NCBI GenBank assembly: GCA_963965975.1
Contig: OZ014415.1
Location: 935,001-999,000 of the forward strand
Direction: 5' to 3'
From: Xestospongia bergquistia
Taxonomy: Eukaryota > Porifera > Demospongiae > Haplosclerida > Petrosiidae
DNA: 64,000 nt
Shown here: positions 28,460 to 47,861 of the stretch, piece by piece
How positions within the stretch are numbered: position 1 is the stretch's first letter
Layout: every line of letters begins with the position of its first letter
Made by a program: the position numbers and the translations under genes
The notes under the pieces: generated by a model
What the model saw: the letters and a program-made list of their open reading frames with translations, nothing else
Told to the model about the DNA's origin: nothing
The model's database searches: none

Positions 28460-31400
28460 ATGTATCCCTACAATAAACGACCGAGAACAACTTCTTCTGA
28501 TACAGATGAAGACGAAAGAGACCAACATAGCTACTCCAATTACACTGTTCGAAAGCGGAAATTAGCTCTTGATGATGATGAGGGAGTGATCAAAAAGAAA
28601 CCACCCACTTATAGTGACTTCTCAATGAAAGTGATGGTACTTAAACCATTCATCCATTTGTAGACATACATCTATTTGTTCATACATATCTCCTCTTTAC
28701 ATCTATTTTAAATCCATTTCTTATTTATTCATATATCCATTCAATAGGCTAGTATGGGTTATAAACCTGGTTTGAGTCTTGGGATGAGTGGTACCAGTAT
28801 CACAAAACCAATCCAAGAGTCATTACATAAAGGCCATCGAGGGTTGGGCTATAATTTAGAGGGACTAGAAAAAGAAGATGTTCAATGGGAACTTGAAGAG
28901 GTGTGGTCATCTGGCAATATTTTTACCAATTAATTTTTTTGTTTTGTTTTTCATTTATCTGATGATTTATTTTTTAAGGTTAATGTTGAACAAGAACCAG
29001 TGTGGCTACCATCATGTCCTCTGACAGTTCTTACTGAATATGATATGGAAGGATGGATTATTATTGGAGAGGTCTCTCCCTCCCTCCCTCCCTCTCTCTC
29101 TCTCTGTCTCTCTCTCTTTCTGTCTCTGTCTCTCTCGCTTTCTGTCTCTCTCTGTCTCTGTCTCTCTGTCTCTCTCTGTCTCTCTCTCTCTCATGTGTAC
29201 TTTGTCTTTATTTAGAGAAAAAAATTTATTGAAGATGAGACTACATATTGTGATGATGAGATATTGGATAAAATTCTCAGTTCTAAGGTATAGAGCAGGT
29301 CCACATGTATATTAAATTCATACCTCATTACAGACTGTTTTTGATAATCTTGGAGACAGAGAGTTTCTTGATGCTCGTCAACGATCAAATCCTTTTGAAA
29401 CGATCAAAGGTGTAATTTTTCAAAACAGGTAAGTCACCATCTTAATAATAGTACATACTAATTTATTTAATATATTTCTCTTCTTTACTGAAACTTATAT
29501 AATGTTATCATTTTTATGTTTTGTGTAGAGTGGCAATGAAAATGGCCAATATTGATGCAGTTTTTAACTTGATGTTCACATCACCTGATAATGTATGATT
29601 AATTAAGTACAACTTCAGTATTTTCACTTCAATGTATGTCCACTATGGATTTTTGCATCAGCTTCTGAAAGGAGTATGCCCCTTTAATCACAAATACTAA
29701 TAGATGTTCTAATATTTTATTTTTAATTTGTATTCAATTTTATGTGATTACCCAGTTCAAATTTGGTCCATATGATGTCATGTATTTTGCTGATATCTGT
29801 GCTGGTCCTGGTGGATTCTCAGAGTATGTACTTTGGAGAAAAACATGGAATGCCAAAGGATTTGGGTTCACTCTCAAAGGTTAGCAATATTAAAATATAG
29901 ATTCCTAATCTTATTAATATTTTTAGATCCAGATTCTGGTTCCGATTTTAAATTGGATTATTTCCATGCTGGACCCAGCGAGACATTTGATCCTCATTAT
30001 GGTGTAGGTGGTTATGATGGTGACGGAGACATAACTAGACTTGATAATCTACAAGCTTTTCAAAAATATGTATTAGAATTGACTGAAGAACAAGGAGTTC
30101 ACTTTGTGATGGCAGATGGGGTAAGTTCTATGGTATTGTTATACAAGAACTGACCCTCAATTGTATCCATTCAAATTTGTTGGAATTGGTCTACCAGATG
30201 TTCAATTAATGATCATTGTTTATTTATCCATGTCCTATCAGCAAGTTTCGTAAAAAAACAATTTTCTGCAACCTGTTAATCTCTTGAAATTAAAATATTG
30301 CTAAATGTTATTGATGATGTAGTCTTAAAGAAGTGACTGTTTGGTGTAACGAAGTACAAGTGGCTAGCAGGTTAAATGAATTCTGAAGAGCCTATAAGCT
30401 CGTACTTGTTGGTTTTCTCATGTTCCCATAGTTATGTCTAGTTGGTAAATTACAGCATTTGTTTCTTTGTGAAAGTGGAATGTCCTCCTCCCCCTAATTG
30501 CTTGTCACAATTTACACTTCTGCTAGAGCCTCCCCCCTATTGAGGGAGACATTACACACACTTAAATCTCAAGTGGTTAAAAATGTGTATTTATAAATTT
30601 TTTAAGAATTACATTTCAGCCTCCGGAGAGGCCTCTAAAAATTGCAAAGCCGACGGTATTTCACGTCGTCAATGCGGGGTATTGGGGTAAGTTTTCAATT
30701 AGCAATAACCACGCCTCGGTTGAACCTCATTGGCTATGGTACTGCCACTGCGCAAAGCTGATTGGCTAATATTTGGTCTGTTTATTTTATATTAAATGAT
30801 GTAGTCATCCACTTGAGGGCTCTAAATATATTGTTCAGTTAATTATCTATGAATATTGATAATTATTAATATTATTAAATTTAATGGATGTTGTGAATAC
30901 TATTAAATTTAATTACGGGGGCGGTATCTTTTTCATAGGGATTTTCAGTGGAGGGTCAGGAGAATATTCAAGAAATTTTATTAAAACAATTAGTATTATG
31001 TCAGTATCTCTGTGCACTCTCTATATTACGAACAGGTAAATGTACACTGTTATTAATGATCCTTGTTCTCTCTCTCTCCTTTCTCTAGGTGGTCATTTCG
31101 TATGTCAAGTGTTTGATATGTTCACTCCATTTAGTGTTGGTCTGTTTTATTTACTTTATCGTTGTTTTGATGAAGTTTGTATCTTTAAACCTGTCACTAG
31201 TAGACCAGCTAACTCTGAGAGGTATCTCTACACACCAATGGACCAGTAGTCCAGTAGACTATTCGATGTGCCATTAACAATGTACACCCATAATCTAGTA
31301 GATCATCCAATGTACCAGTAATCCAATAGATCATCCAATGTACCAGTAATCCAGTAAATCATCCAATGTACCAGTATTCATGTTGATTATCCAATGTACC

Positions 31401-45400: not shown

Positions 45401-47861
45401 TAGGGATTTTCAGTGGAGGGTCAGGAGAATATTCAAGAAATTTTATTAAAACAATTAGTATTATGTCAGTATCTCTGTGCACTCTCTATATTACGAACAG
45501 GTAAATATACACTGTTATTAATGATCCTTGTTCTCTCTCTCTCTCTCTCTCTCTCTCTCTCTCTAGGTGGTCATTTTGTATGTAAAGTATTCGATATGTT
45601 CACTCCATTTAGTGTTGGTCTGTTTTATTTACTTTATCGTTGTTTTGATAAAGTTTGTATCTTTAAACCTGTCACTAGTAGACCAGCTAACTCTGAGAGG
45701 TATATTTACATACCAATGTACCATTAGTCCAGTAGATCATCCAATGTACCATTAGTCCAGTAGATCATCCAATGTACCATTAGTCCAGTTGATCATCCAA
45801 TGTACCATTAGTCCAGTTGATCATCCAATGTATCAATAGTCCAGTTGATCATCCAATGTACCATTAGTCCAGTAGATCATCCAATGTACCAGTATTTCAT
45901 GTTTTCTTGTAGACACTAATGATAATGATCATGTTTTCTTGTATGTAGATATGTAGTATGTAAGGGATTGAGACCAGATACAGATTGTGTCCATAGTTAT
46001 ATGTGGATTGTGAACACTGAATTATGTAGATTAAAAGGTGAAGAACAAGATATATTAGAGGTAAGTTTATTGTAGATTGGTATCTTTTAACCCTTGATTT
46101 CTAGGTTGTACCAGACCATTTACTTTATTCAGAGCCATTTTATTCATACATCACACAAAGTAACAACAGGTTTGTATGTTATGAGACAAAGACCTTTGTA
46201 ACTTGTATTGTTTGAACATTTTTATAGTATTGGTTTAAATCAGATTATTGCACTCAAGAAACTTCGATATTATGTGAAAAATGAGTATGTTGATACTGAG
46301 TTAATCAAACTGTCTATATATTATATTTAAAGAAATCTTCAAGATACAAGACAAACAGAAATTAGATCAAAATGTCTTGAACTTTGGAAGGTATAAGAAG
46401 ATATATGTGTTCATTTAATATGTAGCATAACAATATAGGTCCCTAATGTACCCAGAGTTACATCTACTGAAAGAACTGCAAGTGAAATCTTTGATGAGAT
46501 ATGGAAAGTAAAAAAATCATATTATCTTTTGTATGAACTGCTCTCTGGGGTTACCTACAGAAACTGACTTCCTCTATGCCAGCTGAAATCAAGTTGTTTT
46601 TGTCCAATAATTTTCAGTCTTGTAGTCGTGACAACCTCCCCTTTTTAGTAGATCCCCATTCATGGAAATGGTATTTTGCTTGTGGCAAACGCTATCTACT
46701 TGTTGGACTAGGGGTATGTTTTATAGATGGTATGTGTGTAAATAACAGTAGCTAAGTCATGTGAGTAAATGATGATTGTCACATGACAACACAATGAAAA
46801 CAGCATGATGTCTTATGATTCTTTTCTTTATAGCGTAATCGAATTTATTCCTGGGACATGACAGGAGCAGGAATTAAAGCATCATTCACTCAAAAACCAG
46901 AACTTGTGTTGGAATTGCCACGTGGAACTATCCTTGAAGTGGAGGTAGTATCAGAAATGACAGGAGAAGTATGTCAAAAATGGACAGATAAATTAGTACA
47001 ATGGATCTACTTCCTCTTTTATTAAGATACATTTCTTTATTAGGATCAAGGCCAAAGGGAAGTAAAGGTTATTTATATTGTTGATGTCATAGCTATTTAT
47101 AATAAAATCTATGCTAATAAACCACTCAAAGAAAGGTAGGTGTATTTAATAACAAAGATAATGAAATGTTGTTATTATAAATACAGATTACAACTAGCTG
47201 AGAAATTATGTCGAGTGTTAAATAAACCATGTCGTAAACAATATCTTAGACTTAAGTATGAATGGATGGATGGATGGATGGACATTTAGTTTGGAAATCT
47301 TTTAGGGTTAAAAATTATTATCGTCTTACTGAAATGAATGGACAATTTGAAAAGTGAGTGTCCAATTGTTATATGATAATAACATGTTTACTTTCTATTA
47401 TATAAGTCTTACACTTCGAAAATGCAAAGGAACTAAATGGGAAGTACCAACTATTGAAGTATCTGATGACATCTTTGTTGCTCCAGTAGGTGTGATATTC
47501 TCAAAAATCATTAAAGGTATGTATATACATAAAGATTACTTATCTTCCTTCCATTCATTTAGAACCATGGCAACTTCACATAAGTAAATCTGGTCAATTT
47601 TATTTCTTTAATACAAAAACAAATAAAAGTATCTATGAACCTGATCCCACGTCAGTTTCTCCTTACTTGTTAGTCACCTTATATATTCATTATACATTAA
47701 CACTAGTTCTTTTTAGAACAGTCCTTTCAACACGTCACCTATGGATGTGGTCACGCCCAATTTTTGAGGACGTTTGTAACATTAGTACTACCAACAGCAC
47801 TGAACTCACCTGGTCACACTTAAAATCATCTTTACATGCACTATTTCATAAACACAGATAA
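42462..47861 (+). CDS. CMTR1: CMTR1 copy C, cap1 2'-O-methyltransferase (full K-D-K-E tetrad)
   Basis: Same exon layout, about 854 aa. Exon 1 (42462-42782, 107 codons) has the longest N-terminus, with an acidic Ser-rich tract ([16 protein letters not shown]) and a basic RKRK. The G-patch, which in human CMTR1 recruits the helicase DHX15, is intact. The second catalytic lysine is kept: [13 protein letters not shown] at 45584-45586, along with MKMAN, MADG and PANSERY. The C-terminal WW-like segment is present and the stop is at 47859-47861. By these marks it is the copy most likely to be the working cap methyltransferase. It converges on the fucosyltransferase gene that ends at 48057. Exon 4 follows a (CT)n tract of about 150 bp. 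Confidence 0.92.
43228..43436 (+). repeat. (CT)n tract before CMTR1 copy C exon 4
   Basis: Nearly pure CT for about 150 bp, then imperfect to about 43436; the exon begins at about 43457 after TTTATTTAG. The matching introns of copy A (29075-29192) and copy B (36013-36080) have shorter tracts, so the tract length is unstable. Confidence 0.95.

Follow-up and report, generated by a model that had tools for sequence, protein, structure and literature searches.

Three tandem CMTR1 genes in the sponge Xestospongia bergquistia, each with an antisense U4 gene in an intron and two with glutamine in place of a catalytic lysine

Animals are said to have, in general, two cap methyltransferases (CMTrs) in total (PMC9479742). 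In the window that we analysed, a stretch of 64,000 nucleotides from the sponge Xestospongia bergquistia (assembly GCA_963965975.1, contig OZ014415.1, positions 935,001 to 999,000 of the forward strand), self-comparison revealed a 7-kb unit repeated three times head-to-tail, at 27026 to about 48040, and each unit holds a CMTR1 gene (copies A, B and C; Table 1). The closest described system is CMTR1 itself (FTSJD2; human 4n48 and 8p4e), with which the predicted proteins share the order of the domains and copy C also the catalytic tetrad K239-D364-K404-E441. The locus differs from the described CMTR1 in three respects: the three tandem copies, the glutamine at the K404 position of A and B, and the gene for the U4 small nuclear RNA (snRNA) that lies antisense in intron 8. 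The analysis described below suggests that the methyltransferase domain of copy B has been under strong constraint, that copy A drifts, and that the glutamine probably passed between A and B in a gene conversion younger than the copies.

Various other systems resemble parts of this arrangement. The second, methyltransferase-like domain of CMTR2, called inactive in PMC9479742, misses the catalytic Lys as well, and a CMTR2-like locus on contig C10 of the same assembly has R where copy C has K404; unlike A and B, which are young genes in their own right, this second domain is a long-standing part of an enzyme that is active. PCIF1 of Drosophila, the enzyme for the cap-adjacent N6,2'-O-dimethyladenosine (m6Am), is likewise a cap-modifying enzyme with a substituted catalytic motif, an alteration that could explain the missing m6Am (PMC9479742), but its chemistry is another one and the part of PMC9479742 that deals with it describes no tandem paralogue beside an intact copy. 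The prozyme of S-adenosylmethionine decarboxylase in Trypanosoma is a dead paralogue that is kept alongside an active one (PMC5201418); the prozyme activates its partner, whereas A and B are known here from their genes alone. Finally, the three U4 elements match the described family (RF00015) at full length and have a box around -59 that resembles the one of the U1, U5 and U6 genes of this genome, but differ from it in their antisense position within an intron of a protein gene and in that hosts from a single gene family harbour all three of the copies found. Among the literature matches listed there was no duplicated or inactive CMTR1, and no U4 gene that lies inside CMTR1 or in antisense orientation within the intron of a host.

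The exon models of the three copies were placed by hand from the sequence. In each of them all 22 introns start with GT and end with AG and the frame ends in a single terminal stop; frameshifts or decayed splice dinucleotides were found in the models of neither A nor B. The donor of intron 18 reads GTTGTT in A and GTAGGT in B and C, which was not used as evidence because other donors in the CMTR1 gene are weak too. Against human CMTR1 (chain 8p4e_O), copy C gives E=6.6e-199 over residues 41-820. The Pfam domains FtsJ and G-patch were found over the cut-off in all copies, WW was found in the expected place but under the curated cut-off (24.9, 25.4 and 22.7 bits in the three copies vs 26.9), and the GT-like domain was recognised solely via the alignment to 8p4e_O; the resulting order (G-patch, FtsJ/RFM, GT-like, WW) is the order of CMTR1. 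The best candidates in a protein search of the 146-Mb assembly were the three copies of the array and weaker matches on contig C10, where D, K and E of the tetrad are aligned in the CMTR2-like locus and its first Lys was identified by eye. An artefact of assembly or collapse, by which the CAA codons or the number of copies would be wrong, is barely credible: the copies differ at 112 of the 2333 kept exonic columns and by many indels, which is above the usual polishing noise, and the same CAA occurs in two otherwise diverged copies.

In the alignment with human CMTR1, all three copies retain the equivalents of K239, D364 and E441, and the K-D-K-E tetrad is complete in C and incomplete in A and B. 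The first-pass annotation of this DNA had listed the same CAA, CAA and AAA codons, the intact remainder of the tetrad and frames that are open over some 810-830 codons in A and B; the codons were indeed found in frame at these positions, the three other residues align, and the frames count 809 and 829 codons. Gln is taken as the derived state, because human CMTR1 and copy C carry Lys. The tetrad has been reported to be strictly conserved among aligned animal, protist and viral CMTrs (PMC9479742) and all FtsJ subclasses are said to keep it (PMC12155479). The second Lys activates or steers the 2'-OH of the target ribose, and the equivalent change in VP39 (K175C), at a Lys that is fully conserved in the VP39 family, yields a folded yet inactive protein (PMC7736282). 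Because of this strict conservation and of the inactive VP39 variant, copies A and B are, by analogy, probably inactive as methyltransferases. We consider it unlikely that they are working 2'-O-methyltransferases that are slower or of different specificity: the fold is preserved at the level of sequence, as are the three remaining residues of the tetrad, and according to a review the methyltransferases of Riboviria do not invariably require the second K (PMC9496149), which counts against inactivity, but both the VP39 variant and the invariant tetrad of the aligned CMTrs oppose retained activity. A search for viral relatives of the domain gave three pattern matches, none of which was confirmed.

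The loss of the Lys in an intact frame is not in itself evidence of a selected pseudoenzyme. With 20, 42 or 62 random replacements over 746 codons, the chance that at least one of the four tetrad residues is hit is 0.10, 0.20 and 0.28, respectively; such a hit is therefore not very improbable in copies that drift, and K404Q by itself is weak evidence for selection.

The ratio of replacement to silent substitution rates (dN/dS, omega) separates the two copies. A three-branch codon model was applied to 746 codons overall, and to 747 for the analysis of the domains, of the 804 that are aligned in all copies; exon 1 was dropped because it is misaligned and inflates the replacement count of copy A. 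The branch omega was 0.67 for A, 0.19 for B and 0.20 for C plus the stem. An omega of 1 was not rejected for A (p=0.35) but was for B (p=8e-6), the overall omega of A differed from that of the rest (p=0.006) and from that of B (p=0.018), and A exceeded B in 98% of 60 bootstrap replicates. Within the methyltransferase (RFM) domain (401 codons) the values were 0.99 for A, not distinguishable from 1, and 0.10 for B, for which neutrality was rejected (p=2e-5), as was equality of the two (p=0.009). Over GT-like plus WW (301 codons), omega was around 0.5 in all three (0.53 for B, 0.52 for C plus the stem) and neutrality was rejected for neither A nor B. The unique changes after exon 1 amounted to 27 replacement and 8 silent ones in A against 15 and 17 in B (Fisher p=0.013), with 20 replacement and 21 silent changes separating A and B from C; pairwise dN/dS (NG86, exon 1 kept) was 0.48 for A-B, 0.44 for A-C and 0.26 for B-C. 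The combination that is expected of a pseudoenzyme, a lost catalytic residue with reading frame and domains intact, is thus present in both A and B as far as the fold can be read from sequence, and purifying selection after the loss is not apparent in A, the range of whose omega is wide. Over 2553 noncoding columns 81 changes are unique to A, 37 to B and 42 to C; copy A has the most noncoding unique changes yet the fewest silent coding changes after exon 1.

Copy A also shows further damage. Of the sites where the other two copies equal human CMTR1, 8 are changed in A only (6 of them after exon 1) and 2 in B only (D207N and R708C); in the reverse case, A alone equals human at 3 positions and B alone at 3. 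Two glycines of the G-patch consensus hhxxxGaxxGxGhGxxxxG (PMC6071836), human G105 and G112, are Ser in copy A, and the Pfam G-patch score is 32.2 bits in A against 46.1 in both B and C. The substitution A236V changes RAAMK, which is frequent in the cap subclass (PMC12155479), to RVAMK, and D312Y changes KLDDF to KLDYF within the stretch 310-333 of CMTR1 that was reported to touch the GT-like domain (PMC11139899). In human CMTR1, residues 26-89 form the P-Patch, which is phosphorylated by CK2 (PMC11290353); the serine/acidic stretch aligned with it is missing from exon 1 of copy A. Copy B retains this stretch and its G-patch fits the consensus, with 0 replacement and 3 silent changes unique to B.

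The first-pass annotation had considered A and B clean apart from the lysine and both of them selected pseudoenzymes rather than decaying genes, and had proposed dN/dS per copy as a check. The description as clean applies to the methyltransferase domain of B and fails for A (A236V, D312Y, G105S, G112S and the missing N-terminal patch); selection is evident in B, with an omega well below 1, and decay is the better description of A, with an omega that is indistinguishable from 1. That B, and not A, is a selected pseudoenzyme is nevertheless a reading that we regard as possible yet doubtful. It would keep the contacts with S-adenosylmethionine (SAM) or the cap, with DHX15 (G-patch) and with the C-terminal domain of RNA polymerase II (Pol II) (WW), and would compete with, scaffold or tune copy C or the helicase DHX15. 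The low omega of the RFM domain, the G-patch at consensus and the preserved serine/acidic patch fit such a role, and CMTR1 is reported to bind DHX15 via its G-patch and to affect DHX15 (PMC6071836). It is opposed by the GT-like plus WW part, which is not clearly constrained, by the young age of the tract that contains K404Q (see below), which leaves room for constraint that predates the Gln, and by the 3' end of the gene: copy B is without a 74-bp segment (window 40686 onward) that bears AATAAA, found at +73 after the stop in A and C, and its nearest AATAAA is at +242, with ATTAAA at +27.

The likeness of A and B around K404 is local. Outside exons 10-11 the exonic differences per site are 0.0335 for A-B, 0.0321 for A-C and 0.0302 for B-C, and within these exons they are 0.0082, 0.0490 and 0.0490 (2, 12 and 12 of 245). 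The best-scoring segment of A=B sites (C 45577-46038) comprises 13 of 14 sites (permutation p=0.001), and a scan of the exon sites only gave p=0.0005 to 0.045 for this tract, according to the penalty; as the tract was picked as the best segment, it should be noted that the permutation p allows for its position and the Fisher p of Table 1 does not. A segment of B=C sites comprised 9 of 9 sites (p=0.086). The scan kept 4886 columns. Excluded were the CT repeat, the repeats of intron 10, the region 44742-45010, the 3' flank, all noncoding columns no more than 8 away from a gap, and the part of exon 1 before 42691, which is rich in indels. Intron 5 had shown a run of 15 A=B sites within 22 bases in the first scan; this run was masked, as the intron of C looks replaced or misaligned there.

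Because the A=B likeness is local to exons 10-11 and kinship of A and B is absent elsewhere, K404Q was probably shared via gene conversion after the copies had arisen. The first-pass annotation had left the choice between a change before the split of A and B and a spread by conversion; the second of these is favoured by the local tract, and the first, inheritance from a common A-B ancestor, was rejected as the leading history, there being no sister signal of A and B outside exons 10-11. Judged from the two differences, the conversion, in either direction between A and B, would have very roughly a quarter of the age of the copies. It is possible that, alternatively, copy C was converted by a more diverged sequence. 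If A and B did exchange the tract, its youth has a consequence for the reading of copy B: the constraint on B may have acted while the Lys was still present, and if A was the donor, B had the Lys through most of its life and its constraint is uninformative on a role as pseudoenzyme.

The second gene of the unit is U4, an antisense element in each unit that was absent from the earlier sequence-only reading. Positions 1-138 of the 138 of the covariance model RF00015 are covered in all three (gathering score 46). A covariance search of the 146-Mb assembly, in which 41 of 9918 first-look candidates were scored, gave no other U4, and a DNA search of the assembly with the U4 element returned the same three places and no further ones; the same kind of search gave 4 matches for U1, 13 for U2 (12 above the cut-off), 3 for U5 and 2 for U6. 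Of the 140 positions of the U4 genes 2 are variable, whereas the noncoding rate would predict 8.8 (p=0.006). The sequence AAUUUUUGG, which we take to be the Sm site consensus of U4, is present in the U4 of B and C; the U4 of A has AAUUUUUAG, a change that may impair Sm assembly. Upstream of the genes we found TATAAA around -31 and a box around -59, which reads CCCACAAG in C and CCCTCAAG in A and B. A box like that of the U4 in C, CCCACAA, precedes all four U1 genes, all three U5 genes and the sole readable one of the two U6 genes, and the box near -59 of U2 reads CCCCTAAG in 5 of the 6 that were readable (8 of 13 U2 loci examined). A shared layout of snRNA promoters was seen at the 17 readable ones of 20 loci: 15 of the 17 have TATTCAT or ATGAATA at 82-117 bases upstream, 16 of the 17 have CCCACAA or a similar box around -59 by pattern, and a TATA-like element lies around -31 in most. 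The U4 genes thus look like independent transcription units that are constrained as a group, with the one in C mostly the most canonical, and they could be the reason why the array persists. Human U4 carries Am1 and Gm2 (PMC7960923) and the second nucleotide of U1 or U2 is a target of CMTr2 (PMC9479742); the nested U4 therefore belongs to a type of RNA that is modified by cap methyltransferases.

These data also bear on the explanation that A and B are ordinary young duplicates without a role, in an array that is to shrink by recombination and of which only the U4 and CMTR1 of unit C matter. The neutral behaviour of A agrees with it, as does unit C being the most canonical in tetrad, U4 score (122.0 vs 118.7 and 118.7) and -59 box, but the strong constraint on the methyltransferase domain along the branch of B and the joint variability of the three U4 genes, which is lower than that of the adjoining noncoding DNA, do not, and we consider this explanation quite unlikely.

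The account that best unites the observations, and to which as a whole we give about an even chance, is one in which the CMTR1/U4 unit was triplicated, the activity resides in C, A decays and B is either recently dead or maintained. It would involve: i) the tandem triplication of a unit of around 7 kb, consisting of CMTR1 with an antisense U4 in intron 8; ii) a copy C that, with its full tetrad, most likely supplies the cap-1 methyltransferase activity; iii) copies A and B with Gln for the Lys that steers the ribose 2'-OH, in which the fold would be kept and binding of SAM and capped RNA would be possible but methyl transfer inefficient; iv) a gene conversion across exons 10-11 that may have passed K404Q between A and B after the copies arose; v) a copy A that would decay without benefit, by near-neutral drift and with parts of its other modules lost; and vi) a copy B that would represent either an enzyme recently inactivated by the conversion, the option with a slight edge, or an inactive paralogue that is maintained. 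The U4 gene in each unit may be the reason why the units persist, the array being the sole U4 locus that the searches of the assembly gave. Drosophila CMTr1/CMTr2 double mutants are viable (PMC8904806), so that losing cap methylation is not necessarily lethal.

Several observations weigh against this account. The strong constraint on B is equally expected of a selected pseudoenzyme. The omega of A is imprecise (bootstrap 5-95%: 0.38 to 1.5), because silent changes are few (8), and the noncoding rate of A is around twice that of B and C, which, taken as a yardstick, suggests that A is either somewhat constrained or older. With respect to the conversion, the heaviest penalty leaves the exon-only p of the A=B tract at just 0.045, and a segment of A=C sites (C 43016-43157, exons 2-3; 7 of 7 sites, p=0.010, nonsignificant in most exon-only runs) implies that exchange perhaps extended beyond A and B. 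As for U4, the gene in A deviates from that of C in the Sm site and the gene in B at position 84, and the two share a promoter box unlike that of C, so that they are not clearly better preserved than the CMTR1 copies around them; the U4 of C, for its part, has the upstream TATTCAT at -104, vs -95 in B and -96 in A.

A more far-reaching variant, which we put forward as rather unlikely, is that the array constitutes one functional module: the sponge would draw all of its U4 from antisense genes within introns of its cap-1 methyltransferase genes, whose product belongs to the class that is expected to methylate the first nucleotide of U4; the number of copies would be kept for U4, B would be an inactive CMTR1 that binds the cap and DHX15 and restrains or guides C, and A would decay. 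Under the broader account of a triplicated CMTR1/U4 unit, the nesting would couple the dose of an essential spliceosomal RNA to the CMTR1 copies, which would provide a non-protein reason for the persistence of dead paralogues, and the nested U4 may be a substrate of the enzyme that its host gene encodes. Should B be an inactive CMTR1 that is maintained, this would offer a natural separation of the catalytic from the non-catalytic (DHX15 and Pol II binding) roles of the protein.

Table 1. Location of the CMTR1 copies, the nested U4 genes and the sites discussed in the text (window positions)
Feature	Position	Strand	Description	Basis
CMTR1 copy A	28460..33417	+	23 exons, 809 amino acids, Q at K404 position, drifting	predicted gene model
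CMTR1 copy B	35329..40685	+	23 exons, 829 amino acids, Q at K404 position, constrained	predicted gene model
CMTR1 copy C	42462..47861	+	23 exons, 854 amino acids, K-D-K-E complete, presumed working enzyme	predicted gene model
K404 position, copy A	31106..31108	+	CAA (Gln), in frame	alignment to human CMTR1
K404 position, copy B	38145..38147	+	CAA (Gln), in frame	alignment to human CMTR1
K404 position, copy C	45584..45586	+	AAA (Lys), in frame	alignment to human CMTR1
Exons 10-11, copy A	31089..31593	+	local A=B tract with K404Q	2/245 A-B differences vs 70/2088 elsewhere, p=0.029
Exons 10-11, copy B	38128..38617	+	local A=B tract with K404Q	segment scans
Exon 2, copy A	28748..28900	+	G-patch, two consensus glycines to Ser (human G105, G112)	alignment and Pfam
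Exon 8, copy A	29927..30120	+	D312Y, KLDDF to KLDYF	alignment to human CMTR1
U4 snRNA gene, intron 8 of copy A	30620..30759	-	G>A vs B and C at U4 position 124, Sm site	RF00015, 118.7 bits
U4 snRNA gene, intron 8 of copy B	37659..37798	-	C>A vs A and C at U4 position 84	RF00015, 118.7 bits
U4 snRNA gene, intron 8 of copy C	45078..45217	-		RF00015, 122.0 bits

In the spacer before copy C, the 108 bases at 41565-41672 are identical across all three units, the longest noncoding stretch for which this holds; they gave no Rfam match at the gathering threshold. The array is adjoined by cadherin, von Willebrand D and fucosyltransferase genes, a neighbourhood in keeping with an animal genome. The latter are two single-exon frames of family 10 fucosyltransferases (48057-49517 on the minus strand and 49464-51053 on the plus strand), which are oppositely oriented and come with an inverted repeat of 73% identity. 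They are followed, at 52673-59206 on the minus strand, by an intronless open frame of 2177 codons with cadherin repeat matches in 14 stretches. Self-comparison of the window also revealed a tandem array with steps of around 60 bases at 10472-10959.

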